DNA from: Deltaproteobacteria bacterium ADurb.Bin207 | GTDB taxonomy: Bacteria > Myxococcota_A > Polyangia > Polyangiales > Polyangiaceae | Assembly (NCBI GenBank): GCA_002070115.1 | Contig: MWCO01000013.1 | Span: forward strand, 1 to 64,000 | Direction: 5' to 3' | Length of the DNA stretch: 64,000 nucleotides | Part shown: positions 26,393 to 42,984 of the stretch, in pieces | How the letters are laid out: every line of letters starts with the position of its first letter | Position numbering within the stretch: position 1 is the first letter of the stretch | Program-made: the position numbers and the translations under genes | The notes under the pieces: model-generated | Databases searched by the model: none | Told to the model about the DNA's origin: nothing | Seen by the model: only the letters and a program-made list of their open reading frames with translations

Positions 26393-29300
26393 TCACAACA
26401 CCTCAATCACCTCATCGCCCCGAATCACAAGCCTCGACCGCTCTACCATCAACGCCAACGATGCCTCCAAGCGCTCCCTGGCCTGGGCTGTCAACCGCTG
26501 AATTCCAAATACGCCCAGAGTCTGACGGAATAGCTCTTCTTTGAATCCCCCTCCCAGTTTTTTCCCAAGATCCGCCATCGCATTGCCAAGTTCCACAAGC
26601 TCTATCTGATGCAGCGCACGCTTATATTCCGGATCCGGCCGGTAATCTACCCAAGTGGCTTCGTCCATCCCCGCAGGCCAGAAAAAATCCCGCTCCTTTC
26701 GAATATGCTTCTCCACCACCCCAAGCACTTCATCCTTGCGCTTCTTGTGCAATTGCTGAATCCCAAAACTCACCATCAAAAACCTGGCCAAACGCTCCTC
26801 ATGAACCGGCCCCTCTACCTCCAGCATCCGATTCGCCAGTTCTACAACCATCTTCTGCACGCCGTAGGACTCCTGCAACGCATCCAATTGCTCTTTATTC
26901 CCTACCTTCTGCCCAATCGCTTCCTGAAAAGGCGTCTGTCCGAGCAACGACGGCTCCACGGTCGTCTGAATCGCTGGCTGCTCTGGCTTCGATGCAGAAA
27001 AATCCGTCGACATTACAAGGGTTTGAGACCTTTTCTTCTCCACCGCTCTGGCCGGTGGGGCGTGAACCGCCTTCGCCAATCGCGCGATCACCGCTTCCGG
27101 ATCCGCCAGCCACTCGGGCATCCACACCCGCTCCACGACCGGCCATCGCATCATCTTGCCCAACACCAGCGCGGGCATCCCATCCCGATCCGATACCGTC
27201 GAACGCGCATACCAGCTTTCCCCATCGAGAAGCAAAGCAACACACGGCTGCTCCGGTCTTTCCTGCAACGCAAGCTCGATATCCACACGAAAACTCGATA
27301 TTCCCACGTCTTTGCGCACCGCAAGCCCCGCTTGCCCCAAACGCCTCGCCATCTCGTCCCGATGATGGTCCACCAAAGGACGTCGGCTGGCGACCCTCAT
27401 CGCATCCGCCCCCCGCTGCGCCGCGTCGAGATAGGCACGCAAAAGCTGAATCCCCACCGACGATGTCTCCTCCGCCCGAAGCTGCGACGGATCGAACGAA
27501 CTGAAAACAATCACCTGACGACGCGCCCGCGTTACCGCCACATTCAACCGTCGCTCCCCCCCTTGACGATTCAACGGGCCAAATTGCAGCGGCAATACGC
27601 CCTTGTCATTCACACTGAACGCCGTCGAAAAGAGAATCACATCCCGCTCGTCTCCCTGCACGTTCTCGAGGTTTTTCACAAACAACCCCTCGTGCCTGCT
27701 CTCGAGAGCCTCGATGATCCGCTCATCGTCCGTGTCTCGCAATAGCGCCTCGATATGAGCGCGCTGCTGAATGTTGAAGGTGATAATCCCAAGGGAGGGA
27801 CAGGAATCCGGCGAATTATTGAAACGACGCTTCACCTCGTCGACGATCGCCTGCGCTTCGACCGGGTTGGTTCGAAGCAACTTACTCGGCCCCGTGCGGT
27901 AAAATACACCTTGAACACGCCGCAACGACACCCCCAATTCCTCCTCCGGCGACGGAGGCGTGGGAAAGGAACAAAGCCTCCCTTCGTAATAATGCTGATT
28001 CGAAAAGGCAATCAGCCCTTCATCCTGCGAACGATAATGCCACGTGAGCCATTGTTGCTCGACACCAGCCTGGACGCATTCGACAAGGATCGATTCCTCA
28101 TCATCGACCACGTCCTGTTCTTGCTCGCTGTCGTCGGCCTTCCACTCGGTTTGCAAAAAACTGGTGGGCGGCATTTGCTTCGAATCGCCCACCACGACCA
28201 CCGAACGCGCCCGGCCAATGGCACCAATCGCATCCGAGACGCGCACCTGGGAAGCCTCGTCAAAAACGATGATGTCGAATAACGGGCCATCGAGAGAGAA
28301 AAATCGGGATAATGAATCCGGACTGACCAGCACCACGGGCATGGCTTCCGTGATGAGATCTCCGTACTCGCTCATCAGGTCCCGAACACTTTTCCTTCGT
28401 CGTTGCTTGTTCAATTCTCGCTTGAGGGCACCGATGCGACCGGCCTGCGCATTTCCGTCAAAGCTGCGTTTTTCCACAACTTTTCCTGCCATTACCTCAG
28501 CCAGCAGGGCGCGGCTCTTGTCCTGGCTGTCCGTGAAACGCTCGACGCTGCGGTTATGGGCTTGCGCGTTGAAAACCTCGAGACCTGCCGTGCGCGATCT
28601 TTCGCTTCGCGACGCCATCTCGAGCCCGCGCTTCCACGCACGAACCGCGTCGTTCGAAGAAATCGCGCCATCGAGAATCGCCGCCCGGGCGCTCGTCATT
28701 CCCGCCTCAACAAGGGGTGTAAGATGGTCCACCAAAGCAAGCCACTGCGAAAGAGAACCGAGATTGGGGTCATCCATCCGACGGTGCGCGGAGCTGTCGA
28801 GCCACCGACCCACAAACCCCCGTTCCCCGACCCAGGCCTGCATCGCCGCGGGATGAACAACGCCGCCAAGTCTTCCGAGCGCCCACGAAAGGTTTCTTAG
28901 CGCTCCATGATGCTCCGGCGAAAGCCGTGCCCCCGAAGCCAACCACTCCCGAAGCCGCAACGCAAACGCGCCGCCTTGCCCAAGGCGTAACACTAAACGT
29001 TGCATCAACCCAAACCGGTACGACATCGCTTCCCGATGGGCCTGCCGCAACGGAGTCCAACCTGCGCCCAACGACATGGTCGGTATCCGATTCAACTCGG
29101 AAGCGATGGCCATCGACGCGTTCTTCACCGCCCCCAACTGACCGATAAGAACCTCCGCGGCATCCTTGTCGAGATCCGGTGTCTGCATTCCGCAGGCACG
29201 AAGTCTTGCGCAAAGCTGTTGGAGCAAACCCCGTCGGCTGAAAAAACCCGCGTTCCGAATCTCCCCCCCCAAGCCGAGAATCTCCGCCACGGCAGCGTCC

Positions 29301-32182
29301 CAAAAATCCTCCCGCAACCCCGGCCACGCCGCCTGCTGAACAGTGATCTGGCGTACTCGTTCCCCCAACGCGTTGACCGCCGCTTGCCATGAGGGCGCCG
29401 CCAATACCTGAAGCGTATCCGGACCGATGGTATAACCCACGAGTTCCGCCGTCAGCATCGCCTCGGCCGCATTGCCTATCGCCAGAACCACGGCTGGTCC
29501 CGACGCAAGGGCCACCGCGGAGGGATGAAGATAACGGGCGGCTTCTACGACAATAGCCCGATTGATGTCCCCACTGGCACGCGGTTCCAGAAACCGCCAC
29601 GGTGCATGCGGGGATGGGAAAACCGGGTCTGCCACCGCCGGAAGCCAACGCAATACCTCTTCCAATCGCTGGATGACCTGGGCAGGGGCTTGCAGCAAAT
29701 GCTCCGGGATGGGCATGGCCCGCACGCTTGGATCCGCGGCAATGCACGCTTCCGTGGCGCTATACAGGGAATATCCCGCGCTATTGCGGGCATGAAGCCG
29801 CCGCGCGTACTGCGCAAGGATGGATTGTGCGGACTTGAGGGTTTCCATGGCGTTGGAAAGGCCAATGGGGTCCCCCCGGGATTCGGATGAGGATTCCAAT
29901 GCCGCGCGCACCTGGGATTGAACCGCCGAGGGCTTGCTCTTCTGATCGTGAAGATCAAGCATGAACTCCCCGAGCCCCAATTCCCTGACTCGATTCGAAA
30001 CCACTTCGAGGGCCACCCGCTTTTCCGCCACAAATAGCACTCTTTTCCCTTGAAATATCGCTTGTGCCAGAAGATTGGAGATGGTTTGGGATTTGCCCGT
30101 TCCCGGAGGCCCTTCGAGAACGAAAGTCCGTCCCGCGAGCGCATGCCCTATCGCCTTCAACTGTGAACCATCCGCGGGAATCGGACAGGTATTGCCAAGT
30201 TCGTCCAGGTCCAAATGCGAAGGAGCCTTTACGGGATCCACGAACGGTTCCGTCGGATGAAGCGCCAGATGCCGAGCCAAAGGCGCCTGCAATATCTTCT
30301 CCCAATGCTCGTCGAGGTCTTTCCAAAGACGAAACTTATTGAACTGCAAGGAACCAAGATAGGCGACGGGGCGGACTTGAAAGTCCGCTTTGGTTTCGAG
30401 GGAAACCTGGCGAACGGCATCAAAAGCGGCCTGAAGATCGATGCCGGAAGCGTCTTCCACGGGCTGCTGAAGACCCGGAATCTCGATGCCGAATTCCAGA
30501 CGAAGTTTCTCTAATAGACAATAGTTCGGGGTCGACTCCCCCGCTTCGTCAATGACGATACTGTAGGTCCCCCCCCGGCGTCGTGAAGCCACGAGGCGGA
30601 CGGGCACGAGGATCAGGGGCGACAAGAGCACGCGCTCTTTGAGCTTCCATTCGAGCAGGCCGAGGGTAATATACAGGTTATTGGCACCCGTCTCTTCCTC
30701 GAGGCTGCGAGCCCGATACGCAACTTTCTGAAGCTCGTTTTGATACGATTCGGATGAAATATCTCCGTACAGGATTTTTCTGCTCTTGAAGGCTTCGGAA
30801 CAGACCGAAAGAGGCATGTCTTTCACCGAATCCGCATCATGACGCTGTTTGATGGTGTCATCGATGGCGTCGGCCGGATGCAAGGGAAGAGCGTGCCCGG
30901 CGTTGAGCAGATCTTCGACTAGCGGCAGATCATCGGCAGAAAGAATGAGTTCGATAGACGAGCGAGGCGTAAAGTGAATGAGTCGGTTGCGCAAAGAAAG
31001 GTCGAGAAGACGGTTTTTCCAGTGGCGTACGCGCGTTGGGGGCTCTTTTTCCGCTTTGCGAGGGTGGGTTGTGCGGGACAGGGGCGCAGGCACCTCGGCA
31101 AGCCTTGGGCGAGAATGTACAGCGGGCTTGTATTCATGGACCTGAATGACACCGTTACCATGGGATATGGCAGGCAAAGGGCGTATGCCAAGTTGACGGG
31201 CCGCGACAATATCGCTGGCTCCGAGAAGACCGTCCTGAATACGCGTTTTGGCTTCCGCGACAGCCTCGAAAAACGGGGTTTTATGAGGGATACACGTTGT
31301 CTCTACCACGCCGATCATGCCAAGATCCACGCGGTTCACCAGATCCCCGGATTCGGCCAAAAAAGCGCTGCCCGAATTCACTTCTTCACGCCAATAGCCC
31401 ACGAGGGCATGCTCCTCGAGCATCAGCAAAAGAGGATGCAAACCGCATTGTTCGAGCACGGCAGCCAGCACCACGCTCAGGTCCAGGCAAGTGCCCAATC
31501 TTCCCCCAAGAACTTCCGCGGGAGTTCGTACTTTCTGCCCCGCCTGTTCCCAACTCGCCGGAGGATTGGCGTAGTTGATTCCCTTTTCTGCCATGGCCGC
31601 GTACGACGCCGCAACGATCTGATCCACGCGCTGAGGATCACCGGACTGATACCCATCGATGCTGGAGTCGGATGTAAATTGTTGGAGATAGTCGGCCACA
31701 CGAACCATGAGCGAGGCGATTTCCGGGGCATTGGGCATCACGTGGGCGGAAAGCATTTCCATGGCGAGCCCAAACGGGCTCCCCAGCCAATGGCTATGAG
31801 CCAATACGGTCAGAGGCAAGCGTTGGGTGGCAAGGGTTTGCTGGCCTTTCACCAGCCACACGGCGACCTCCCCCTGGCGTGTTTCCTCCACCTGACGCAT
31901 CTTTTCCGGGGCGAGGATGTTGATAAAGTCCGTAAATTCAACCTGTTGGAGAGGTTCGAGGTGGATGTCGCGCGTGACCGGATGGGAAAGAGGCGTGATG
32001 GCGTCGCGAACCTGCACGATGAGTTGGGCAGACTCGAGCGTGGCGTCTTCGCTCGACACGCGAATGGCCCGAATCGGGTTGATCCCGCTGTTCGCCATCG
32101 CGAAACTCACGACCGGTTTTGCCTCTATCTCGATGTTCACGATCTCTCCCTGGGGCTGGTATCCGCTGAGGATATACTCCAA
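26393..32182 (-). CDS. Giant DUF4011/SF1 helicase/Vsr-like nuclease/DUF3320 protein
   Basis: 1929 residues. An N-terminal beta-rich region (1-150) precedes a transglutaminase-like segment (about 205-295) with GGRLGTCLDLSVVLAA and EEHALVGYW. DUF4011 follows (about 385-530; WKNRLLDLSLRNRLIHF). The SF1 helicase has Walker A GPPGTGKSQT near 690, DEASQ near 1307, GDSKQMPP near 1338 and RLNVAVTRARRQV near 1545. A Vsr/MTES_1575-like nuclease module (about 1605-1700) has FRVDIEL and VALLLDGESW. DUF3320 forms the C-terminus. Such proteins cluster in defence and accessory islands; nucleic-acid unwinding with cleavage is expected. Frame intact; no methylase or partner gene adjacent. Confidence 0.9.
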   Translation of the reverse strand: MEYILSGYQPQGEIVNIEIEAKPVVSFAMANSGINPIRAIRVSSEDATLESAQLIVQVRDAITPLSHPVTRDIHLEPLQQVEFTDFINILAPEKMRQVEETRQGEVAVWLVKGQQTLATQRLPLTVLAHSHWLGSPFGLAMEMLSAHVMPNAPEIASLMVRVADYLQQFTSDSSIDGYQSGDPQRVDQIVAASYAAMAEKGINYANPPASWEQAGQKVRTPAEVLGGRLGTCLDLSVVLAAVLEQCGLHPLLLMLEEHALVGYWREEVNSGSAFLAESGDLVNRVDLGMIGVVETTCIPHKTPFFEAVAEAKTRIQDGLLGASDIVAARQLGIRPLPAISHGNGVIQVHEYKPAVHSRPRLAEVPAPLSRTTHPRKAEKEPPTRVRHWKNRLLDLSLRNRLIHFTPRSSIELILSADDLPLVEDLLNAGHALPLHPADAIDDTIKQRHDADSVKDMPLSVCSEAFKSRKILYGDISSESYQNELQKVAYRARSLEEETGANNLYITLGLLEWKLKERVLLSPLILVPVRLVASRRRGGTYSIVIDEAGESTPNYCLLEKLRLEFGIEIPGLQQPVEDASGIDLQAAFDAVRQVSLETKADFQVRPVAYLGSLQFNKFRLWKDLDEHWEKILQAPLARHLALHPTEPFVDPVKAPSHLDLDELGNTCPIPADGSQLKAIGHALAGRTFVLEGPPGTGKSQTISNLLAQAIFQGKRVLFVAEKRVALEVVSNRVRELGLGEFMLDLHDQKSKPSAVQSQVRAALESSSESRGDPIGLSNAMETLKSAQSILAQYARRLHARNSAGYSLYSATEACIAADPSVRAMPIPEHLLQAPAQVIQRLEEVLRWLPAVADPVFPSPHAPWRFLEPRASGDINRAIVVEAARYLHPSAVALASGPAVVLAIGNAAEAMLTAELVGYTIGPDTLQVLAAPSWQAAVNALGERVRQITVQQAAWPGLREDFWDAAVAEILGLGGEIRNAGFFSRRGLLQQLCARLRACGMQTPDLDKDAAEVLIGQLGAVKNASMAIASELNRIPTMSLGAGWTPLRQAHREAMSYRFGLMQRLVLRLGQGGAFALRLREWLASGARLSPEHHGALRNLSWALGRLGGVVHPAAMQAWVGERGFVGRWLDSSAHRRMDDPNLGSLSQWLALVDHLTPLVEAGMTSARAAILDGAISSNDAVRAWKRGLEMASRSERSRTAGLEVFNAQAHNRSVERFTDSQDKSRALLAEVMAGKVVEKRSFDGNAQAGRIGALKRELNKQRRRKSVRDLMSEYGDLITEAMPVVLVSPDSLSRFFSLDGPLFDIIVFDEASQVRVSDAIGAIGRARSVVVVGDSKQMPPTSFLQTEWKADDSEQEQDVVDDEESILVECVQAGVEQQWLTWHYRSQDEGLIAFSNQHYYEGRLCSFPTPPSPEEELGVSLRRVQGVFYRTGPSKLLRTNPVEAQAIVDEVKRRFNNSPDSCPSLGIITFNIQQRAHIEALLRDTDDERIIEALESRHEGLFVKNLENVQGDERDVILFSTAFSVNDKGVLPLQFGPLNRQGGERRLNVAVTRARRQVIVFSSFDPSQLRAEETSSVGIQLLRAYLDAAQRGADAMRVASRRPLVDHHRDEMARRLGQAGLAVRKDVGISSFRVDIELALQERPEQPCVALLLDGESWYARSTVSDRDGMPALVLGKMMRWPVVERVWMPEWLADPEAVIARLAKAVHAPPARAVEKKRSQTLVMSTDFSASKPEQPAIQTTVEPSLLGQTPFQEAIGQKVGNKEQLDALQESYGVQKMVVELANRMLEVEGPVHEERLARFLMVSFGIQQLHKKRKDEVLGVVEKHIRKERDFFWPAGMDEATWVDYRPDPEYKRALHQIELVELGNAMADLGKKLGGGFKEELFRQTLGVFGIQRLTAQARERLEASLALMVERSRLVIRGDEVIEVL

Positions 32183-33005: not shown

Positions 33006-34862
33006 TTAGCACAGGGATGCCTTTTTTCTCGACAGGTCCAACAACCCCTCTGCCAACTCCAGCGCATCCGTGGGCCAGTACGTCACGGGTCTTGGCCGTC
33101 GCACGCCTCGGAATCCCGCCATGGGACGACACGTGAGCACGCGATCCACCCACGGAAATGGCACGGCTTCGATTCCATACACCGCCCCCATCAACGCCCC
33201 TGCAATACAGGCATTGGTGTCCGTATCTCCCCCTCGCAGGACTGTATCCTCCACGCCCTCCGCCAGGCAACTGGCATGCAACAACTGATAGAAAGCGTTT
33301 TGAAAGGCAATTTTGCACCAACCCATCTGCGACTGATAATCGGATGGCGCCGACGTCTCCGCGGCCCGAAGCCAATCCATGACCGCGTTGTCGAGATCTT
33401 GTGTCTTCGCCCACGCGCGCACGAAACGATATACTTTTTCGCCCGGATCTCCGCTTTTCAGCGCATGCTGAATGGCAACCACGTATACCGCGTTGACGTC
33501 CTGACACACCTTGTGCGGATGCGACAGGGAAGCATCATATCTAGCTAATTTTACAAGTATTTCCTTGGGTAGGGAGCAGCCGAAGATGGCGAGGGGAGAG
33601 ATGCGCATGAGCGCGCCGTTGGCCTGACTCTGCTTGTTCGCGGCGTTTTGAGCCGCCAAGGCCGCCTCCGATGTCGCCCGAGCCGCCGCGGAAAACGCCA
33701 TCGACGTGGTGGACCCCATATCGAACGGGGAAGACGAATACCACGTGGCGTACGCACGGGCTACCGCATCACCCTCATAATCTCCCACTTCGATGAGGCT
33801 GCGCGCAAGGGCCAGCGCAAGTTCGCTGTCATCCGTGGGTTGTCCTGGCAATGTGCCCCAGGTGCCGCCGTCCTGGAGTTCGCGGATTCCATGGGGATAC
33901 GATGCCTTGATCCGCTCGGAAGACTGGAATTCGACGAGGGAACCGAGGCTATCTCCCGCGAGTTGCCCGAGCAAACAACCTTGCGCTCTCGATAGTTGGC
34001 CCGCGTCCTCGATTGTCCGACCGCGCAAATCCAGCGTTTTTCGGCTTGATGAGCGATGGCCCCCCAGCCTTCTCTGACGTAGCCTTTCCAGCAACTCGTT
34101 CGCCACCGTCGATGTCCCCCCCACGCAGATGCCACCGCAGCCGCCCCGGCCATCGTGCCCATACACGACCGGTTTGCCATCGGCGTCGAATAAATCGCCG
34201 CCAACTCCACGCAACAGCGCATGCCCCCCCGCGTAATCCCAAGACACCGGCCCGTTGATCGAATAGCTGGCTTCCGCTTCTCCCACCGCGAGCAACGCGA
34301 GCCGATACGCGATCGATGGCATCCCCCGAAAACGCGCGGGACTGACGATTTCTGCATTTCCTTTCACGTCACGCTCGGCTCCTGGCGCTGTCAGCACGGT
34401 ATGGCCGCTCGAGAGCGCGGATGCCAGGGGACGTCGGTGAACGGGAACGCCGTTGCGAATAAGCCCTTGCCCTTCGCACCACGCGATCATATCCCCCTTA
34501 TCATTGGGATAGAGAGGGCTGAACACGACCCCGAGGACAGGCTCGCCGGCCCGCAAAAGGGCGATGGAAAGGGCCGCTCCCCGCCGACATTTCTCGAAAT
34601 GGGTGCTGCCATCGAGCGGATCGATGACCCAGACATGCGCTTGTTCGTCGGTAGCCAGACGATCGGCTTGCGGCAACTCCTCACCGAGTTGGCCATAAGA
34701 AGGGAAAGCTGCCCCCAGCGGTTCGCGGATCATGGCCTCCAGGGAAGCATCGAGTCCGTGCTCTGTCAGCGTGTGGCCGGTAGCATGAAATGCGGTTCGC
34801 ATGGCTCGTCCCGCGATGCTGGCGGTCTCGATCGCAACCTGCAACTCCCGTGAATAACGCAT
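33006..34862 (-). CDS. Fusion of inositol-monophosphatase-family phosphatase and ADP-ribosylglycohydrolase
   Basis: 618 residues in two complete enzymes. Residues about 1-265 are an IMPase/CysQ-type phosphatase with metal-binding GEE (YGQLGEELP), VIDPLDGSTHF and SWDYAGGHAL. Residues about 285-600 are an ADP-ribosylglycohydrolase (DraG/ARH type) with GCLLGQLAGDSLGS, PTDDSELALAL and LRGGDTDTNA. All the metal-binding motifs are kept, so both halves are probably active. IMPase-family members act on inositol phosphate, PAP or NADP; ADPRH removes ADP-ribose from proteins or nucleic acids. It is divergent from an operon with pnuC and nadR, which favours an NAD(P)/ADP-ribose role (inference). Confidence 0.9.
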   Translation of the reverse strand: MRYSRELQVAIETASIAGRAMRTAFHATGHTLTEHGLDASLEAMIREPLGAAFPSYGQLGEELPQADRLATDEQAHVWVIDPLDGSTHFEKCRRGAALSIALLRAGEPVLGVVFSPLYPNDKGDMIAWCEGQGLIRNGVPVHRRPLASALSSGHTVLTAPGAERDVKGNAEIVSPARFRGMPSIAYRLALLAVGEAEASYSINGPVSWDYAGGHALLRGVGGDLFDADGKPVVYGHDGRGGCGGICVGGTSTVANELLERLRQRRLGGHRSSSRKTLDLRGRTIEDAGQLSRAQGCLLGQLAGDSLGSLVEFQSSERIKASYPHGIRELQDGGTWGTLPGQPTDDSELALALARSLIEVGDYEGDAVARAYATWYSSSPFDMGSTTSMAFSAAARATSEAALAAQNAANKQSQANGALMRISPLAIFGCSLPKEILVKLARYDASLSHPHKVCQDVNAVYVVAIQHALKSGDPGEKVYRFVRAWAKTQDLDNAVMDWLRAAETSAPSDYQSQMGWCKIAFQNAFYQLLHASCLAEGVEDTVLRGGDTDTNACIAGALMGAVYGIEAVPFPWVDRVLTCRPMAGFRGVRRPRPVTYWPTDALELAEGLLDLSRKKASLC

Positions 34863-35131
34863 AGATCACGGATACTACAGCTCCGAACCCCCCGTAAATC
34901 AAAATGAATACCGTCGATATCCTCGAAAACGAGGGAGTGGTGGACCATCGTCGAGCGGTATTTTGCTTGGTTATTCTGTTTTTCCTTCTTCGAAGAAAAT
35001 ATTTAACGAGCGTGAGATTGTGGTTCTAGGCAACCCCCCAAAACATGGTACTTATTCCATCCACCATCGTTTCAGCCACAACGTCATGATCGTCCAGGCT
35101 ACCATCGTCAACTCCCATGAGAGAAGCAGAG
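34863..35131. promoter_or_regulatory. Divergent control region between the fusion gene and the MoxR-NadR operon
   Basis: This 269-bp region separates two divergent transcription units with related themes and so should hold both promoters. It contains an AT-rich stretch (about 34955-35010) suitable for a promoter of the rightward operon. I see no recognisable riboswitch or NrtR/NadR-type operator in it. Confidence 0.4.
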
Positions 35132-36721
35132 ATGAGCCATCTATCCGATTTCGCCAGGGCGATGCTGGGTAAGATCCCGGCGTCTCCTACCAACCCGCGT
35201 TCGGTTGACCATCAGCCAGGATTCAAGATTGAGGACCTGTTTTCCGACGATCCGGCGGCAGGGACGATCGAGGTTGGAGGTCTCGACGAAAAACTGCGTC
35301 AGGCGTATTTTTGGGTGACCAATACCGCTATCATCAGCCCATTTTATGATATTGAATATCATGAGGAGGCCCCGCGCACCTTTCAGTTTGGCGACAGCAA
35401 ATTCGAACTGACCCTTCCGACCGGTCAAAGCTATTCCAGTTTCGTACTGATTCCTTTGTTGAATTTGGCGGTGCGGGGGCGTTGTCTGATTGTGGGCGGG
35501 CCTGGACGGGGGAAAACGGCCACCGCGGTCTTGATGGGTCTTCTGGCGGGCTACTCCCAGCTCGAGGTAAAAAGGGCGATTCAACACGGACAGCCACAAA
35601 TGACGATTGCGGACCTGCTGGGGAATCCGTTGCCCTCGGATATGATGAAAGCCGAAAATATCGGCGATATTCGCATTTCTTGGCGTAAGTGGCTGTCGAT
35701 GCGCGTAAAAATCATCGATGAATACAACCGGATTCCCACCCGGACCCAATCGGCTTTGCTGACAGTCTTGGCCGACAACTATGCGGAGATTCTCGACCAG
35801 GTCTATGAATGCCCCGAGGCGGCGTGGTATCTGACGGCGAACGACGATGGCGGGGGCGGTACGTATCAGGTCATCGAGGCCTTGCGCGACCGCATCGATG
35901 TGGTCATTCGGGCATTTCACTTCAACACCCGATTCATCGCTGACTTGCAGCAGCGTATCGAACTGTCCTTCCGGCCCGAGGAGGTCATTCCCAGGGAGAT
36001 CATTTTCAGCGAAGAAGAGTTGACGCGGATGAATCGCGCGATTCGAAACGTACCCATCGACACCTCCGTACGGCGTGCGCTCGAGTTTTTCTGCCGTCAT
36101 TTCGAATACTTCGAGCCATCTTCCCCACGCCTGGAATATATGACCAAAGATACCGCCAAACTGTCGGGGCGCGATTTTGGTTTGCTATTGAAAGAAATCA
36201 CCGGAAAAGACCTGATCAAAGACCTGGGCGCGCAAACCCATAATGGCCTTTCCGTCCGAAAACTAATGACCATCATCATGTTTTCCAAAGCCCTGGCTTT
36301 CTTTCGAGGCTCGTCTTTCGTAGGCATGGAAGACATGCGTCAGATGATCCCCTTCGTTCTTCACGATACGTTGGTTCCCCATCTCGAAGCGCCGTTTTTC
36401 GACCAGCCCGGCCACGACTCCTACCGAATCGACCGCATCAGTTGGCTGCGAAAGCTATTCGATCTATCCAATGCGGAATACTATCGGCTCAATTTGCAAA
36501 ACGACGATCCTGTGGGTGTTTTCGAAGAGGAATTCAGGGCTGGCCTCGATGGTTTGTCGTTGAAAGAGGTCGAAAAACGCTTGAACGCCATCGAAAGATA
36601 TCTGGGGACATTGGCGAAAACAGGCAAAATGTTCGGCCACCTTGCCGATGATATTCTCACGCTCAAATACCTGCATCAGCGTTATACGAATTATCGGAGA
36701 TGGTTGAAATGGAACAGTTGA
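35132..36721 (+). CDS. MoxR-type AAA+ ATPase
   Basis: About 529 residues. Walker A is GGPGRGKT near residue 121, Walker B is IIDEYNRIP near 194 (MoxR family DEINR-like), sensor 1 lies around YLTANDDGG and an arginine-finger segment is LRDRIDVV. The C-terminal 200 residues are a helical extension longer than in basic MoxR proteins. I prefer ATG 35132, preceded by AGAGAAGCAGAG, over ATG 35117, which has no ribosome-binding site. MoxR ATPases remodel proteins together with vWA partners, and a vWA gene is two genes downstream. First gene of the operon; overlaps the next gene. Confidence 0.88.
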   Translation: MSHLSDFARAMLGKIPASPTNPRSVDHQPGFKIEDLFSDDPAAGTIEVGGLDEKLRQAYFWVTNTAIISPFYDIEYHEEAPRTFQFGDSKFELTLPTGQSYSSFVLIPLLNLAVRGRCLIVGGPGRGKTATAVLMGLLAGYSQLEVKRAIQHGQPQMTIADLLGNPLPSDMMKAENIGDIRISWRKWLSMRVKIIDEYNRIPTRTQSALLTVLADNYAEILDQVYECPEAAWYLTANDDGGGGTYQVIEALRDRIDVVIRAFHFNTRFIADLQQRIELSFRPEEVIPREIIFSEEELTRMNRAIRNVPIDTSVRRALEFFCRHFEYFEPSSPRLEYMTKDTAKLSGRDFGLLLKEITGKDLIKDLGAQTHNGLSVRKLMTIIMFSKALAFFRGSSFVGMEDMRQMIPFVLHDTLVPHLEAPFFDQPGHDSYRIDRISWLRKLFDLSNAEYYRLNLQNDDPVGVFEEEFRAGLDGLSLKEVEKRLNAIERYLGTLAKTGKMFGHLADDILTLKYLHQRYTNYRRWLKWNS

Positions 36722-37656
36722 CGTTCAGCCCATTGATCGAACACCTTCGGGAGCATGCGGCGGAACTCAATCAACTGCGAAAGGCTTGTATTCCCGACGC
36801 GAGCCGCATGGACACGGCGATGGCCGTACGCTGGTTCCACGAAGTCATCGAACCGGTTTTTGTCGCCGTATGTCAGTATGACCCGGCCCGGGCTCCCCAG
36901 GTTTTCCGAATTCTTTACATCGATATGTTGCGCGTGTTCGCCGCTGGACGCGCCCAGGCCGACCCGCTGGTGATTCAATGCCGTCGTTTGCTCGCTCATA
37001 ACCCGAAATTGACTGCCTCTGAACCGCAACGAATCCTCGAATTGTTGGATCATGCCCTGCGGCATATCGTCTCGCATTCCCCCAAAGCCGCCATGCCGTG
37101 GCTAGAGTTGATGGAAAAGGTCCTTGGGAAGGTAGCGGATATCGACCTTATGATCCTTGCCGCTAGATTCGCGGCCTGGCGGTGTGGCATGGCGCATTTG
37201 CGGCACCTGTTGGACCCCTGGCCCGCCCTGCCCGTGGCGCTTCGAGAAATCATCTTTGCCGGCGAGCCAATCGGCGAACAGGAAGTGCAGACGGGCTGGA
37301 CGAAAGGAGCGCCGGTGTACGCGTGGACGATTGGCGCCTTCAAGGGTTTCCAAGGGAAATTCCGAAGACCCCCTCGCGTCACGTTGCACGATGGTCTTGT
37401 CGTCGCCACGGATGGCGAGGTTCAAGCGGTTGTCTTTGCCGATCGATTTGGGGTGGTGCTGCATGATGCAATGAGACTTGCCCCACCTTCCTTTCCGAAA
37501 AAACCGCCGCCACACTCGTCCCTACGAGCGGATATTGCAAGAATTATTGGCAGTTATAGCGATTGCACCTCGTGGGTGTTGCATGACTCTGCGTTGTATC
37601 TGACCACGGCGTGTTCCCATGCCATTTTCCTGTTCGGAGCCTTTCATGACTCGTGA
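36709..37656 (+). CDS. Unknown protein between MoxR and vWA genes
   Basis: About 315 residues from ATG 36709, which has CGGAG nine bases upstream and lies inside the end of the MoxR gene. The N-terminal 200 residues are helical (LIEHLREHAAELNQLRKA, ILELLDHALRHIV). The C-terminal 110 residues are beta-rich with a basic, proline-containing loop (GKFRRPPRVTLHDGLVV). No known motif is recognised. Position and overlap suggest it acts as an adaptor or substrate-binding partner of the MoxR-vWA pair. Confidence 0.75.
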   Translation: MEQLTFSPLIEHLREHAAELNQLRKACIPDASRMDTAMAVRWFHEVIEPVFVAVCQYDPARAPQVFRILYIDMLRVFAAGRAQADPLVIQCRRLLAHNPKLTASEPQRILELLDHALRHIVSHSPKAAMPWLELMEKVLGKVADIDLMILAARFAAWRCGMAHLRHLLDPWPALPVALREIIFAGEPIGEQEVQTGWTKGAPVYAWTIGAFKGFQGKFRRPPRVTLHDGLVVATDGEVQAVVFADRFGVVLHDAMRLAPPSFPKKPPPHSSLRADIARIIGSYSDCTSWVLHDSALYLTTACSHAIFLFGAFHDS

Positions 37657-39466
37657 AACGTCCGAACAACCGCCAGAGATCGCGGAGGTTCTTGCCCGTT
37701 GGCAAGAAACCTGGCCGACGGCGTTGCAGCTCTGGAACCCTTATGTGAGTCTGCGGGAACCGCAATGGTGTCTTACGACCGCCGAGGCGCGAGAAGCAGG
37801 TTTGCAGGATAGTTTTGCGATGATCCGTCTTCGGGGCCTTGCGGTCGTCGTCGATCTCGAAACCGTACGAAAGCTGCGTGTCGAAAACTATGCACTCCAG
37901 GTATTGGCGCATGAAATTGGTCATCACCTTCTCGTGCCGGCCAATCTATACGATTATGCGGGCTTGATGATGCGGGTGCGGTTGGCCTTGGCGGGTATCG
38001 AAGACCGGGCTCCGCTGGTCGCCAACCTCTATGCCGACCTTCTCATCAATGACAGGTTGCAGCGCACCATGGGCCAGGACATGGCATCGCTGTATCGGCA
38101 TTTGCGGGAAAAGGGTATCGGTGAAACACGAATTTTCCTTTGGTATATGCGGATTTACGAGCTTCTCTGGAGCCTGCCCCGCGGCTTTTTGTCGTGCGAC
38201 AAGAGTGAACCGGTATTGGATGCGGATGCCTCGTTGGGAGCCTCCGTCCTACGAAGCTTCGCGCGAGATTGGCTCGATGGAGCCGGTCGGTTTGCCATGC
38301 TCGCTTATCCCTATCTCATCGAAGATGCCCTACACCAGCAGGCCCTTCGCGAATTTGCACATCTTTCGGACATCACGAGCGCGGGAGTTGGCGCCGAATT
38401 GCCCGCGGGCATGGCAGAAATCCCGTCATCCGTATTCGATGGTATCGTCGATCCCCGGGAGGAAGTCCTCCAAAATGCGCCGAATCACCAGGAGGCAGAC
38501 TCGCCCGGTCGCGCCAAGCCCGGTTCTTTGACCGCGATAATCCCAGGCTCGGATGCCTCGACCGGGCCACAACAGCGTTATATGCAGCCTGGCATCTATG
38601 TGGACTTGATGCGGCAGATTCATCCAGACGTCGACGAAGATCGGTTGATTGGACGTTATTATCGCGATGTGGTCACCCCCCATCTCGTGCCGTTTCCCGT
38701 CGAAGCCTTGGGCGAGCTTTCGGGGGATGTCTTGCCAGAGGGAACCGATCCCTGGGAGCCCGGCGACCCGATCGAAGACCTGGACTGGTTCGAATCCGCG
38801 CTACTTTCCCCAATCGTGATTCCCGGAGTCACGACCCGCCGTCGCGTGTACGCAGAAGATATCGCGGAGCCGGAAAAAGAGAAACCTTATCATCTTTATG
38901 TGGGTATCGATTGTTCCGGATCCATGCATAACCCCCGTCGCACCTTCTCCTGGCCAGTTTGTGCTGGGGCATTGGTTTCGTTGTCCGCCTTGCGGGTGGG
39001 AGCGCGGGTGATGGCTTGCCTGTCGGGGGAACCGGGCTCGTTCATGGAAACCCGGGGATTCATCAAGGAAGAAAACGAAGTGCTGCGCGTATTGACATCC
39101 TATCTCGGTACAGGCTACGCCTTCGGGATTCCTCGATTGGAGACCGAGCATCTCCAAAACGCCAAAGAAAAAACGCATTTGCTGATCGTGACCGACGACG
39201 ATATTTTTTCGATGCTTGCAGCGCCACGATCGGACGGTCAAACCAATTACGATATTGCCGAACAGGCTCTACGGCGGGCGGGGGGCGGAGGAACCCTGGT
39301 CTTGCACGCACGGGCCGAGTGGCGTCCCCAAGAAGCCGAACGCTTGCGGCAGATGGGATGGGTCATTCATTATGTCACCGATGAAAACGCCCTATTTGAT
39401 TTTGCAAAAGCCTTTGCGAATCGTTTCTATCGCTCACAAGGAAACCCAACATGCAAAAGGCCGTGA
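37646..39466 (+). CDS. vWA domain protein with HEIGHH metallopeptidase-like motif
   Basis: 606 residues from ATG 37646, with GGAGC just upstream; it overlaps the previous gene by 11 bp. An N-terminal domain carries AHEIGHHLL at H89-H94, an HExxH zinc-peptidase signature, followed by NLYADLLINDRLQ, as in DUF2201-type putative peptidases. The C-terminal vWA domain has an intact MIDAS: DCSGS (D422, S424, S426), a threonine near 488 in GTGYAFG, and TDDD. Together with the MoxR ATPase it matches the MoxR/vWA remodelling pair. The combined peptidase-like domain could cut a client protein (inference). Confidence 0.82.
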   Translation: MTRETSEQPPEIAEVLARWQETWPTALQLWNPYVSLREPQWCLTTAEAREAGLQDSFAMIRLRGLAVVVDLETVRKLRVENYALQVLAHEIGHHLLVPANLYDYAGLMMRVRLALAGIEDRAPLVANLYADLLINDRLQRTMGQDMASLYRHLREKGIGETRIFLWYMRIYELLWSLPRGFLSCDKSEPVLDADASLGASVLRSFARDWLDGAGRFAMLAYPYLIEDALHQQALREFAHLSDITSAGVGAELPAGMAEIPSSVFDGIVDPREEVLQNAPNHQEADSPGRAKPGSLTAIIPGSDASTGPQQRYMQPGIYVDLMRQIHPDVDEDRLIGRYYRDVVTPHLVPFPVEALGELSGDVLPEGTDPWEPGDPIEDLDWFESALLSPIVIPGVTTRRRVYAEDIAEPEKEKPYHLYVGIDCSGSMHNPRRTFSWPVCAGALVSLSALRVGARVMACLSGEPGSFMETRGFIKEENEVLRVLTSYLGTGYAFGIPRLETEHLQNAKEKTHLLIVTDDDIFSMLAAPRSDGQTNYDIAEQALRRAGGGGTLVLHARAEWRPQEAERLRQMGWVIHYVTDENALFDFAKAFANRFYRSQGNPTCKRP

Positions 39467-40026
39467 CCATTTCTGAATTGATTCATCATATCAAGCAGTG
39501 CCCGTCGGAATTTCTCGACATGCCCGCCCGCGGCGAAAATGACGACGGAGTTCATACGCTTGCGTTGGTCAACGATATCCTGCGTTATATATGCCATTGT
39601 CCAACGACGCCCTGCCTGCTGACGGTGGAGGGCAAAGCCGACAAGACTGCGGAATGGCGTTTATGGCAAGTCTGCTGTTGGGCTTTGTCCCATCCCGTGT
39701 TTTTCGAGGCAGGCCCCGCCGCCCAATGGATACCTCTATTTTCCGGCAGGCTCGACGAGGTTTCGACGTTGGTGGAGACGGAAAAGTGGGTGACGGACGA
39801 AGAGCGCGCGGAGGAATTGGCCCGAATTCTTCTCTCCCATGCGGCAATCATTCCGGAGGGGGAAGATGCGACCATCGCAGCCGACCGTCTGGATGCCATC
39901 GATACGGTCAAGCGAATGAAGGTCATCGAGCAGACTCGTCAAGCAGAGCTGCGAACGCAAGAAATCAGGCGTCAGATGGCGGCGCGGGCAGCCCGGGAAG
40001 CCGCCAATGCCTACGGGAGGGAATGA
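39451..40026 (+). CDS. Small unknown operon protein with charged C-terminal helix
   Basis: 191 residues. ATG 39451 lies inside the end of the vWA gene, with AAGGA eight bases upstream; the stop overlaps the next start (ATGATGA). The N-terminal 120 residues are mixed and contain several cysteines and tryptophans (RYICHCPTTPC, WRLWQVCCWAL). The C-terminal 60 residues form a long charged helix or coiled coil (KRMKVIEQTRQAELRTQEIR). No family recognised. Its place between the vWA and ligase genes suggests a linking or carrier role, but this is inference. Confidence 0.7.
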   Translation: MQKAVTISELIHHIKQCPSEFLDMPARGENDDGVHTLALVNDILRYICHCPTTPCLLTVEGKADKTAEWRLWQVCCWALSHPVFFEAGPAAQWIPLFSGRLDEVSTLVETEKWVTDEERAEELARILLSHAAIIPEGEDATIAADRLDAIDTVKRMKVIEQTRQAELRTQEIRRQMAARAAREAANAYGRE

Positions 40027-41372
40027 TGAACCCCGTCGAGGGCCTTACGGATCGACAGAGATTCCCGCTGATCGACGATTTGCGACTGCTGCATCGTCTG
40101 CGGCAGGACGAAAGCGCCCCACGCTTCAATTTTGCCTCGGGGGACCGACTCGATGGCGCCGGACTCGAGAAGGTACACGAGTATCGTCGGTCGCTGGACA
40201 CGCAGCCATTTTGGCTGCCAGGACAACTGCCGGCGTGGATGACGACGTTTCTGGATTGGTGTCAACGACAGGTGCCCGCGTATAGGGATATTGGCTCTTG
40301 CTTTCAGGCCATTCCCACCTTGCGGCGACCGCAGATCGCTGCCCGTCCTTGGCAATACGTGGCGGCGGAAGCACGTCTGGAGGACATGCTGGTTTTTTGT
40401 ACCTCCGGAACGACGGAGGCGCCCATGGACGTCCTGGCAGATCCGGTATCGCAGGCGTGTTGGCTTCCGCAACTCGAATCCATTCTTGAACGGGATCGGA
40501 TTCGTTTCGACCGGGAGGGGCAGAAGGTGGCGATTTGTCTGGTATGCGATCAAAAGGATACGCTCACGTACGCTTCGCTCTCGACGTGGCTCGGCGGGGC
40601 GGGGGTTCTCAAAATCAACCTCAATCCCGAAGAATGGAGCAAGCCCGAGGATCGTTGTGTCTATCTCGAACGGTACAACCCTGAAATCATCACGGGCGAT
40701 CCGTTTTCGCTGTGGAGCATGGCTCGTGTAGCGCCTCGTATCAGACCCAAAGCGATGGTTTCGTCGGCGATGACGTTGCACCAGGGGGCCAGGCAGCTTT
40801 TGCAGCAACAATTTGGTTGCCCGGTTTATGACATTTATTCCCTTACGGAATGCCGTATGATTGCGGTATCCACCGAGCCGGCTAGGTATCGTTTGATTCG
40901 CCCCGAACTCTATGTGGAGATCCTTTCGCCAGACAGCGATATTGCCGTGCCCGAGGGCGCGGTCGGCGAAATCACGGTGACAGGGGGGAACAATCCCTTT
41001 TTGCCGCTCGTGCGGTATCGAACCGGTGATTTTGCTTCGCTGAAATATGTGGATGGACACCCATGTCTTTGCGATCTCGAAGGCCGCTCCCCCGTCATTT
41101 TTTTGCGTCAGAATCGGGAATTCCTCAATCCCATCGATATCTCACGCGCGTTGAGCAAGGTTGCGCTGGCGGGCTTTACTCTGCATCAGCGTGAGGATTT
41201 ATCCCTGGAATTTTCCGCCTGGGGTGCGGAACTCGAGGCCAGGTCCTTGGAAACGACCCTGAAGCAGCTTTTTGGTGATGCCATTCCGCTGCAAATGACC
41301 CTTTCCGTCGAATCGCCCCCAAGCCCCCAAAAAGTAAAATATACTAGTGAAATCAATGAGATAGAAATATAA
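40023..41372 (+). CDS. Adenylate-forming enzyme, phenylacetate-CoA ligase (PaaK)-like
   Basis: 449 residues. Motifs of the AMP-binding superfamily are in order: phosphate loop CTSGTTEAP near 125, adenine/acyl motif YSLTECRM, the hinge-region RYRTGDF, and a C-terminal lysine in PQKVKYTSE. It activates a carboxylate as acyl-AMP and may pass it to CoA or another nucleophile. No aromatic-degradation genes lie nearby, so the PaaK pathway role is unlikely. It starts inside the previous stop codon, and pnuC follows two bases after its own stop, so it belongs to the NAD-linked operon. Confidence 0.85.
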   Translation: MMNPVEGLTDRQRFPLIDDLRLLHRLRQDESAPRFNFASGDRLDGAGLEKVHEYRRSLDTQPFWLPGQLPAWMTTFLDWCQRQVPAYRDIGSCFQAIPTLRRPQIAARPWQYVAAEARLEDMLVFCTSGTTEAPMDVLADPVSQACWLPQLESILERDRIRFDREGQKVAICLVCDQKDTLTYASLSTWLGGAGVLKINLNPEEWSKPEDRCVYLERYNPEIITGDPFSLWSMARVAPRIRPKAMVSSAMTLHQGARQLLQQQFGCPVYDIYSLTECRMIAVSTEPARYRLIRPELYVEILSPDSDIAVPEGAVGEITVTGGNNPFLPLVRYRTGDFASLKYVDGHPCLCDLEGRSPVIFLRQNREFLNPIDISRALSKVALAGFTLHQREDLSLEFSAWGAELEARSLETTLKQLFGDAIPLQMTLSVESPPSPQKVKYTSEINEIEI

Positions 41373-41374
41373 CC

Positions 41375-41983
41375 ATGTCGGTCCTCGAACTCGTTGCCGT
41401 GATTTGTGGCTTTCTTTGCGTCTTGTTGACCATTCGGGAAAACATCTGGTGTTGGCCGGCGGGCCTCGTTCAGGTCACGCTCTATGTCTTCATTTTTTTC
41501 GAGGCCAAGCTTTATTCCGATGTTCTTTTGCATATCATCTATATTTTCATGAATCTTTATGGCTGGTATTTCTGGCTTCATGGGGGCCGCGAGCGTCAGA
41601 AAGCCAAGGTTACCGGACTAGGGCTGCCACTTTTTGTGGCTTCTGCGGCGTTGTCCGCGGCTGGCACACTTGCGCTTGGCTATATGATGGAAAGTCGTAC
41701 GGATGCTTCTTATCCCTATGCGGATGCTTTCACCACCGCGTTCAGTCTGATGGCGCAATGGCTCATGTCCCGAAAAAAGTATGAATCATGGGATTTTTGG
41801 ATCAGCGTGGATGTGGTGGCCATTTATATATATGGTGCAAAAGGGCTGTATGCGACTGCGCTGCTTTATGTTGCGTTTTTGGTGATGGCCGTCCTTGGAC
41901 GCCGCAAGTGGTATCATTCGATGCGACAGTCTGAGGAAATCCGGCGTGTCGAATCGCGCCCGGAATGGGAGCCGGCATCATGA
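41375..41983 (+). CDS. pnuC: Nicotinamide riboside transporter PnuC
   Basis: 202 residues with about seven hydrophobic segments. Landmarks of PnuC are RENIWCWPAGLVQ, NLYGWYFW, LMAQWLMSRKKYESWDFWISVD and the final IYGAKGLYATALLYVAF. It carries nicotinamide riboside across the inner membrane by facilitated diffusion, drawn by phosphorylation inside the cell. Its stop overlaps the nadR start (ATGA), so importer and kinase are made together. Confidence 0.93.
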   Translation: MSVLELVAVICGFLCVLLTIRENIWCWPAGLVQVTLYVFIFFEAKLYSDVLLHIIYIFMNLYGWYFWLHGGRERQKAKVTGLGLPLFVASAALSAAGTLALGYMMESRTDASYPYADAFTTAFSLMAQWLMSRKKYESWDFWISVDVVAIYIYGAKGLYATALLYVAFLVMAVLGRRKWYHSMRQSEEIRRVESRPEWEPAS

Positions 41984-42984
41984 AAATCGGGCTGACCCTG
42001 GGCAAGTTTTCCCCCTTGCATAAGGGGCATCAATTCTTGATTGAGACCGCTCTGGGCGAAGTGGACAAGCTTTACCTACTACTTTATGACAGTCCGGAAA
42101 CGACAACGATTCCGCTATCGGTTCGGGCGGGCTGGGTGCGGCGTATGTATCCGCAAGTGCAGGTGGTGGAAGCCTGGGATGGACCTTCCGATGCCGGATA
42201 TACCCCCGAGGTAATTCGTATTCAGGATACCTTTGTTCTTTCGCATTTTCACGATAAAAACATTACTCACTTTTACTCCAGCGAGCGCTATGGGGAACAC
42301 GTCAGCAAAGCCCTGCGAGCGGTCAATCGTGTGGTCGATAGGGCGCGTCGGAAAGTGCCGATTTCAGGCACGCAAATTCGTGAAAATCCTTATGCCGCGC
42401 GGCAATATCTATCGGATGTGGTCTATCGAGACCTCATCGTCAATGTGGTGCTGATGGGTGCGCCTTCCACGGGAAAAACGGTGTTGGCCGAATATCTTGC
42501 CCAACGTTTCCATACCGTTTGGATGCCGGAATACGGGCGAGAATACTGGGATGCCCACCAAATAGACCGTCGCTTGACCCAAGCACAATTGGTGGAAATC
42601 GCAGAAGGTCATCTCGAGCGGGAAGAACGACAGTTGCTACGGGCCAATCGCTATCTATTTACGGACACCAACGCTCTGACGACGCGTCTGTTTTCGTATC
42701 ATTACCACGGAACCGCCGATCCAACGCTCGAGGCGCTCGCCGACCGATGCGCGAGCCGCTACGATCTTTATTGCGTTTGCGTTCCCGACTTTCCTTATGT
42801 GGTTTGTCCGGACCGCTCCGGAGAGGGGAGTCGTCTCATTCTGCAAAAACAGTGTCTTGCGGACTTGCATTGCCGGAAAATTCCGTATTTGCTGGTAGCT
42901 GGCAGCGTGGCCGAGCGCGCCGACCAGATCGCCCGCGCCCTCGAAGGGTTGCAGAAATACACGAACCCCTGGCGGCTCGGGTAG
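41980..42984 (+). CDS. nadR: Bifunctional NMN adenylyltransferase / ribosylnicotinamide kinase NadR
   Basis: 334 residues. An N-terminal nucleotidyltransferase domain has FSPLHKGH (H14-H17) and PISGTQIRENP. A C-terminal P-loop kinase domain has GAPSTGKT near residue 160. It phosphorylates nicotinamide riboside to NMN and adenylates NMN to NAD. There is no N-terminal helix-turn-helix, so it is not the E. coli-type repressor. ATG 41980 overlaps the pnuC stop by 4 bp. Last gene of the seven-gene operon. Confidence 0.94.
   Translation: MKIGLTLGKFSPLHKGHQFLIETALGEVDKLYLLLYDSPETTTIPLSVRAGWVRRMYPQVQVVEAWDGPSDAGYTPEVIRIQDTFVLSHFHDKNITHFYSSERYGEHVSKALRAVNRVVDRARRKVPISGTQIRENPYAARQYLSDVVYRDLIVNVVLMGAPSTGKTVLAEYLAQRFHTVWMPEYGREYWDAHQIDRRLTQAQLVEIAEGHLEREERQLLRANRYLFTDTNALTTRLFSYHYHGTADPTLEALADRCASRYDLYCVCVPDFPYVVCPDRSGEGSRLILQKQCLADLHCRKIPYLLVAGSVAERADQIARALEGLQKYTNPWRLG

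Follow-up and report, generated by a model that had tools for sequence, protein, structure and literature searches.

Introduction

PnuC and NadR are a known pair for the salvage of nicotinamide riboside. Ternary conflict systems built around pairs of MoxR and vWA proteins have been described (Kaur et al. 2020, PMC7159879), and RavA-ViaA, CoxD-CoxE and Mg-chelatase are listed in the same work as MoxR-vWA type machines. In the beta-propeller subsystem of the ternary systems the propeller lies C-terminal to the vWA domain and the P-loop of MoxR often reads GXXXTAKS (PMC7159879). A pair of MoxR and a metallopeptidase-vWA protein is known from jumbo phages (PMC7824862). In PMC9503650, genes for NAD and ADP-ribose are connected with conflict, and ARG-centred anti-ADP-ribosylation systems are described, in which an ADP-ribosylglycohydrolase is coupled to a phosphatase, sometimes together with a vWA chaperone.

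The window, i.e., the whole stretch of 64,000 nucleotides analysed here, contains a seven-gene cluster whose first five genes constitute a hitherto undescribed module. The ternary MoxR-vWA systems are its closest described kin, but the cluster is not a member of them. Shared features are a core of MoxR AAA+ and MIDAS-bearing vWA proteins, further conserved components, a patchy distribution, and a TCAD9 protein adjoining the cluster at one locus (L107), with homologues in four others. Unlike the ternary systems, the window cluster has a vWA protein whose length is constant and whose N-terminal part is a zincin domain, an adenylate ligase and NAD-synthesis genes, and no defence neighbourhood surrounds it. 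Membership in the ternary systems was not borne out by the features compared. No VMAP, iSTAND, FtsH or propeller-type third component was found when g2 and g4 were searched against Pfam, NCBIfam and PADLOC as whole libraries rather than with individual VMAP or iSTAND models, no FtsH gene is among the seven, and no variable effector domains are fused to the vWA protein, which is 564-626 aa long and aligned throughout in 45 relatives pre-filtered to 0.85-1.25 of the median length. The beta-propeller subsystem differs further: the MoxR proteins compared here have the P-loop G[GA]PG[RK]GKT in 78 of 78 sequences, and the window vWA protein terminates about 90 residues past D526.

RavA-ViaA, CoxD-CoxE and Mg-chelatase share with the present cluster a MoxR ring and a vWA partner for ATP-driven remodelling; the cluster adds the zincin domain, the ligase, g2, g4 and the NAD genes. 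The jumbo-phage pair likewise has a vWA protein with an N-terminal metallopeptidase adjoining MoxR, but the window vWA protein matched nothing in phage records at E 1e-5. The ARG-centred systems resemble the neighbouring IMPase-ADPRH fusion in joining glycohydrolase and phosphatase; the phosphatases given in the passage of PMC9503650 compared here are, however, R-P, calcineurin-like, HD or HAD enzymes and not IMPase, and the fusion is unlinked to the MoxR cluster in its relatives. By family, the last two genes of the operon belong to PnuC-NadR salvage. What sets them apart is their attachment to a MoxR-vWA operon, which has recruited them again and again in genomes that for the most part can also make NAD de novo. 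No literature on MoxR together with PnuC or NadR was found in a search that covered few subscription journals.

Organization of the gene cluster

The features are listed in Table 1. An ORF check found all operon genes and the fusion open at these coordinates, and the tightly packed one-strand cluster with a divergent fusion gene upstream stands as it had been read from the sequence. MoxR and g2 overlap by 22 bp, g2 and the vWA gene by 38 bp, the vWA gene and g4 by 16 bp, g4 and the ligase gene by 1 bp, and PnuC and NadR by 19 bp; a gap of 2 bp separates the ligase gene from PnuC. The MoxR reading frame is open from 35117, and the start at 35132 is favoured because the alignments of relatives begin at about residue 6. 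A search for the same gene order in other genomes recovered the identical seven genes in the identical order in three Riflebacteria loci (L044, L045 and L046; MoxR identity 75-76%), and the grouping is therefore not due to chance.

Table 1. Genes of the cluster and the neighbouring fusion gene in the window
Feature	Coordinates	Strand	Evidence
IMPase-ADPRH fusion, 618 aa; neighbour, judged outside the system	33006..34862	-	IMPase PF00459 (1.4e-31); ADPRH PF03747 (6.9e-62)
MoxR-clade AAA+ ATPase	35132..36721	+	PF07726 (2.1e-7)
g2, 318 aa	36700..37656	+	outside Pfam, NCBIfam and PADLOC families
vWA protein with predicted N-terminal zincin-like metallopeptidase domain	37619..39466	+	invariant zincin and MIDAS residues
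g4, 191 aa, all-helical	39451..40026	+	outside known families
PaaK-like adenylate-forming (ANL) ligase	40026..41372	+	NF045666 (1.6e-23)
PnuC nicotinamide riboside transporter	41375..41983	+	PF04973 (1e-56); TIGR01528 above cut-off
NadR: NMN adenylyltransferase and ribosylnicotinamide kinase	41965..42984	+	TIGR01526 (7.3e-50), below curated cut-off

Core proteins

The Walker A and B motifs of MoxR are present in 78 of 78 sequences checked, and the window protein is 57-60% identical to its nearest homologues in related genomes. Family-profile searches with the vWA protein gave no match. The residues H98, E99 and H102 of its zincin HExxH motif are the same in all 45 relatives compared, as are N136, D140 and N144, the MIDAS residues D431, S433 and S435 (DxSxS), and D526. 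The N-terminal domain is thus a predicted zincin-like metallopeptidase, for which proteolysis would be the expected activity.

Neither g2 nor g4 could be assigned to a family or fold. For g2, no match was obtained in Pfam, NCBIfam or PADLOC at E 0.1, and for g4 none in Pfam or PADLOC at the same threshold and one chance-level match in NCBIfam. The AF2 model of g2 (mean pLDDT 92.6) has a helical N-terminal and a small beta C-terminal part, and that of g4 is all-helical (93.1); fold searches gave no match at E 0.001, for g2 against the PDB. The g2 gene is present in 83 of the 88 loci gathered by MoxR similarity. In a sample of 284 Myxococcota genomes, g4 occurs in all 13 with a close-type vWA protein, is matched weakly in four with divergent vWA relatives, and is absent from the rest.

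The ligase aligns clearly to solved phenylacetate-CoA ligases (PaaK), with a whole-protein Pfam score of 26.5, below the cut-off of 29.9. The ANL motifs A3, A5, A7 and A8 are present, and the SGT(T), Y..TE, YRTGD and R354 positions are largely or fully conserved. Its C-terminal region aligns poorly, and the ANL catalytic lysine (A10) is not placeable there. The literature on the DVU_1553 ligase family yielded no lead. No recognisable NAD-consuming enzyme is among the core proteins.

Distribution and association with NAD genes

The 88 loci, including that of the window, were gathered by MoxR similarity alone; NAD genes were therefore not selected for. The five-gene core (MoxR, g2, zincin-vWA, g4 and ligase) is complete in 63 of them and occurs in at least eight bacterial phyla, with a patchy distribution and transfer between phyla. 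Incomplete loci are frequently cut by contig ends.

The assignment of PnuC is clear (PF04973, 192 bits against a cut-off of 27.3; TIGR01528, 111.6 against 42.45), and it is the only PnuC in the genome. Both halves of the window NadR, adenylyltransferase and kinase, align to solved NadRs; in the set used for the NadR tree, HxGH is present in 52 and Walker A in 50 of 53 sequences. The conservation of pnuC/nadR with MoxR-vWA genes, on which the sequence-only reading depended, was found: NadR lies near the core in 48 of the 63 complete loci. These NadRs belong to several lineages and stand in several arrangements, NadR and PnuC being located downstream, upstream, divergent or convergent depending on the lineage. 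Sister MoxR branches carry NadRs of different lineages (L057 and L062, 100/96; L053 and L069/L070). Within the Bacteroidota, NadR has been exchanged and its linkage to the core retained. Among the 284 Myxococcota genomes the core is found in 13, NadR in 29 and both in 10 (Fisher p 6e-9), i.e., NadR accompanies the core in 10 of 13 genomes (77%) versus 19 of 271 others (7%). This repeated, differently arranged and renewed co-localisation, together with the genome-wide co-occurrence, bears out the proposed functional tie between the MoxR-vWA genes and NAD synthesis.

Among 38 genomes with the cluster, 30 encode a two-domain NadR and three an adenylyltransferase-only form. The latter form is held by three clusters, and it therefore seems that the dinucleotide product, rather than the uptake of riboside, is what is needed. 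NadA is encoded in 30 of 39 genomes, so the salvage of nicotinamide riboside is mostly additional to de novo synthesis. In L119 the cluster is situated opposite a gene set of NAPRTase, NAD synthase, NMNAT-Nudix and ADPRH. A real NadR is absent genome-wide in four betaproteobacteria with clusters (L083, L093, L107 and L111) and in some Myxococcota (G099, G201 and G265); NadR is therefore not obligatory.

Neighbouring genes

A full-length IMPase-ADPRH fusion occurs in about 23 relatives, none of which has a close-type MoxR cluster, and the Riflebacteria operons, though closely similar, have no ADPRH next to the cluster. The fusion, which the sequence-only reading had counted as part of the system, was rejected as a member on these grounds and is judged, from these gene contents, a resident neighbour. 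A comparison of its flanks in relatives with the window gave no convincing synteny, and a point at which the cluster was inserted next to the fusion did not emerge from it. In three other lineages (L069, L100 and L119) ADPRH does adjoin the cluster, and a link to ADP-ribose is therefore possible elsewhere.

The genes flanking the clusters are largely of ordinary types. A scan of the neighbourhoods for defence genes found one PADLOC match at 1e-10 among 85 sampled flanking proteins, a count without a random-region baseline, and location in a defence island was rejected. Carriage by phages or plasmids was also rejected: the window vWA protein matched neither phage nor plasmid records, viral contigs contained no MoxR relative, and one remote MoxR was found on a Halorubrum plasmid. 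The earlier suggestion of a role under phage or toxin stress thus gained no positive support.

Proposed function and alternatives

We consider the seven genes to be one horizontally spread functional unit with a link to NAD (probability about 0.9). Gene content and order across the loci show a five-gene core to which genes for NAD synthesis have been joined repeatedly. Because the module keeps being joined to genes that make NAD, it probably relies on its own NAD supply. Beyond this need for NAD, we infer the steps as follows. The MoxR ring and the vWA protein would capture and remodel a client protein, which the built-in zinc-protease domain may clip, or for which it may serve as a peptide gate. 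The ligase with g4 would activate a carboxylic acid as an adenylate, for transfer onto either the client or a small molecule. PnuC and NadR would produce NAD+ locally, riboside being imported and converted to NMN and then NAD+; the reaction would consume NAD+ or proceed only where it is plentiful, hence the local supply. As a whole, this NAD-fed remodelling or modification machine is a tentative proposal that falls somewhat short of even odds. The conserved catalytic motifs of MoxR, the zincin, MIDAS and most of the ligase speak for it; the lack of a recognisable NAD-consuming enzyme in the core and the clusters in genomes devoid of a real NadR count against it.

That PnuC-NadR is an ordinary salvage pair travelling with the operon, with no joint work, is very improbable. 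Some clusters indeed lack NadR, others have it unlinked, and the pair is already known from salvage, but its repeated renewal at different positions, the co-occurrence in Myxococcota and the retention of adenylyltransferase-only NadR speak against mere neighbourhood. An unlikely but more substantial alternative is that an NAD-derived small molecule or modified cofactor is the product of the operon: the ligase would activate an acid, NadR supply or adenylylate the nucleotide, radical-SAM enzymes tailor the product, and MoxR-vWA insert it into a target enzyme in the manner of a chelatase. Many lineages have radical-SAM genes within the cluster or next to it (cluster 7 in nine, clusters 22 and 25 in four each), g4-ligase pairs are duplicated behind radical SAM in L091, L115 and L121, L084 and L105 have an inserted gene for a GNAT acetyltransferase or a proline racemase, and the three adenylyltransferase-only NadRs would fit as well. 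Radical SAM is, however, missing from the operon in the window and from those most closely related to it, neither a carrier protein nor the usual tailoring set was found, and this reading offers no explanation for the zincin that is invariant in the vWA protein.

A conflict or stress module, in which MoxR-vWA would act on a client under attack by phage or toxin, with PnuC/NadR replenishing NAD+ and ADPRH taking off ADP-ribose, is rather improbable. It would agree with the central place of MoxR-vWA pairs in conflict systems (PMC7159879), with the conflict-linked NAD and ADP-ribose genes in PMC9503650, with the ADPRH genes adjoining three clusters, and with the patchy distribution and inter-phylum transfer. 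MoxR in L107 adjoins a protein that combines TCAD9, phosphatase and isochorismatase domains and whose N-terminus weakly resembles nicotinamidase; homologues of this protein occur close to MoxR in L071, L083, L093 and L111. Against this, the sampled flanking proteins gave the single PADLOC match, the core proteins match no PADLOC model beyond weak P-loop noise, the vWA length in the length-pre-filtered set is constant where effectors would vary, close relatives are lacking in phages, viral contigs and plasmids, and the ADPRH fusion is unlinked in relatives.

Returning to the NAD-fed machine, its fullest form would be a new NAD+-consuming machine for protein modification or maturation, with a MoxR ring, a protease-bearing vWA protein, an acyl-adenylate ligase, two new families and its own NAD+ production, spread horizontally across many phyla; this we regard as doubtful, yet worth stating. 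MoxR-vWA machines are generally classified according to the clients they serve, and here a widespread group has NAD synthesis as its recurrent partner. Named carriers that are not metagenome-assembled, Flavobacterium saccharophilum, F. aquidurense, Pontibacter ramchanderi and Paucimonas lemoignei, make the system testable. If NAD+ is indeed a co-substrate or switch, the cluster would tie the remodelling of proteins to NAD metabolism in a new way, and g2 and g4, families without relatives in the libraries searched, would gain a function.

Operon structure and origin

In this Myxococcota genome, seven genes follow one another with junction overlaps of 22, 38, 16, 1 and 19 bases and a single gap of 2 bases. 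Gene positions and families confirmed the tightly packed cluster and the divergent IMPase-ADPRH fusion gene read from the sequence alone. The first five genes are referred to as the core. Predicted folds of g2 and g4 are confident (mean pLDDT 92.6 and 93.1, respectively) and matched no solved structure.

Features of the window and of other collected loci (L numbers; C, contig)
Feature	Location	Strand	Remarks
Seven-gene operon	35132-42984	+	
MoxR AAA+ ATPase		+	gene 1
g2		+	gene 2; 318 aa, no known family
vWA protein		+	gene 3; zincin motif in N-terminal part
g4		+	gene 4; 191 aa, no known family
PaaK-like adenylate ligase		+	gene 5
PnuC		+	gene 6
NadR		+	gene 7; two catalytic domains present
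IMPase-ADPRH fusion	33006-34862	-	divergent from operon
DUF4011/AAA helicase-nuclease	26393-32182	-	1929 aa; upstream of fusion
TCAD9 protein	L107:7609-9927		precedes MoxR; isochorismatase-like, TCAD9 and phosphatase (DSP-PTPase) domains
TCAD9 homologue	L071:6438-8747		phosphatase part also detected
Three ADPRH-matching ORFs	L100:6012-9952		Limisphaerales MAG; directly upstream of MoxR; two overlap, starts uncertain
Second vWA match and second g4	L153:13401-15592 (genome G151, C1)		vWA match in two pieces; behind core; single-contig genome

Riflebacteria proteins share 75-76% identity with the window MoxR, against 57-60% for the closest homologues of related genomes. The window groups with Riflebacteria in both the MoxR tree (support 100/99) and the NadR tree (98/99), and the G+C content is 55.2% in the cluster versus 56.7% in the window. 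Horizontal acquisition of the cluster is likely. Related genomes (L037-L042) carry a more distant MoxR and vWA family (MoxR 40-48% identical), with neither PnuC nor NadR nearby within the stretches examined. The clusters of L087 (MAG labelled Anaerolineae) and L092 (Alphaproteobacteria) are nearly identical, reflecting either recent transfer or a binning error.

Distribution of the core

A MoxR-alignment scan of 84,980 bacterial and archaeal species, one genome per species, yielded 406 MoxR relatives. The best 80 of the 406 were kept and related Myxococcota loci added. The profile census covered a set of 88 loci, the window among them. Presence was 83 for g2, 73 for vWA, 66 for g4 and 64 for the ligase; contig ends truncate many loci with missing core genes. 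The complete core was found in 63 of 88 loci (45 outside one Flavobacterium block), from Rifleibacteriota, Bacteroidota, Spirochaetota, Chloroflexota, Verrucomicrobiota, Acidobacteriota, Planctomycetota, Pseudomonadota and Myxococcota. Among 284 Myxococcota genomes, g4 was present in all 13 with a close-type vWA; four others, which have divergent vWA relatives, gave a weak g4 match, and the remainder none. The five-gene core is one unit. In Leptospira-like clusters (L073, L075, L076, L077; domains checked in L073), cation-efflux and ZIP-type transporter genes separate vWA from g4.

Linkage to NAD synthesis

Loci were gathered through MoxR similarity and NadR was no criterion. Of the 63 loci with the full core, 48 hold NadR (30/45 once the Flavobacterium block is left out) and 39 hold PnuC. 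The window, Riflebacteria, Sphingobacteriaceae and Verrucomicrobia have these genes downstream, Flavobacterium and Sporocytophaga upstream; a divergent arrangement is seen in a Planctomycetales MAG and the Myxococcota genome G046, a convergent one in G151 and the Myxococcota MAG KLAP118. A TonB receptor gene stands between ligase and PnuC in L071. Paucimonas (L119) carries NAPRTase, NAD synthase, NMNAT-Nudix and ADPRH genes divergent to the cluster. In L084, L105 and L115 NadR consists of the adenylyltransferase half only and PnuC is absent, suggesting that what the cluster needs is the dinucleotide product. NadA is encoded in 30 of 39 genomes, so riboside salvage mostly comes on top of de novo synthesis.

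Cluster-linked NadRs fall in several lineages of the NadR tree, with 8 label changes, of which well-supported branches force 6. The sister MoxRs of L057 and L062 (100/96), and likewise L053 and its sister L069/L070, are accompanied by NadRs differing in lineage and position; thus NadR was swapped over time while its linkage to the core lasted. NMNAT-bearing NadR was found in 10/13 Myxococcota core genomes versus 19/271 others (Fisher p 6e-9; the genomes are not independent, although five families contribute), and two-domain NadR in 30/38 cluster-bearing genomes, at times outside the cluster. Frequency, varied positions, renewed lineages and genome-wide co-occurrence uphold the proposed link between MoxR-vWA genes and NAD synthesis, which is real.

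The sequence-only reading had also counted the fusion as a member. This was rejected: about 23 of 145 relatives carry it nearly full length (40-56% identity), none with a MoxR 57-60% identical to the window's (one, G094, has a 48% relative), and no ADPRH lies beside the Riflebacteria operons, the closest to that of the window. ADPRH genes adjoining the cluster in L069 (2 bp downstream of NadR), L100 and L119 are suggestive of NAD or ADP-ribose turnover.

Relation to defence systems

The suggested control of NAD(P) or ADP-ribosylation during phage or toxin stress found no backing on the defence side. Against PADLOC defence models the core genes gave weak P-loop noise only, and 85 near flanking proteins, mostly of ordinary families, gave one match at 1e-10. 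The window vWA matched no phages or plasmids, and its MoxR no viral contigs. The DUF4011/AAA helicase-nuclease (PADLOC PDC-S37, 867 bits; Hhe similarity) is a candidate defence gene.

The ternary MoxR-vWA conflict systems (Kaur et al., PMC7159879) have a third component of a described type, but none was detected in the window operon; they have variable effectors, whereas this operon has none and its component lengths are constant. A GXXXTAKS P-loop has been described for their propeller and FtsH subsystems (PMC7159879), unlike the ordinary G[GA]PG[RK]GKT of MoxR here. The sole pointer to them is the TCAD9 protein, named in Pfam for a 'ternary complex associated domain', with homologues near MoxR in L071, L083, L093 and L111. 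Two-domain NadR is absent genome-wide from the betaproteobacterial L083, L093, L107 and L111. Judged by the features tested, the operon does not belong to the ternary systems.

Functional interpretation

Gene content, conserved catalytic motifs and the NAD linkage are established. A serious rival to client remodelling is that the operon is biosynthetic, as would be suggested by duplicated g4-ligase pairs and by the radical-SAM genes that many lineages have near the cluster. Under the remodelling reading, MoxR-vWA would remodel a client protein, the zincin domain may perform proteolysis, the adenylate ligase would activate an acyl group, and NAD+ may serve as co-substrate or switch.
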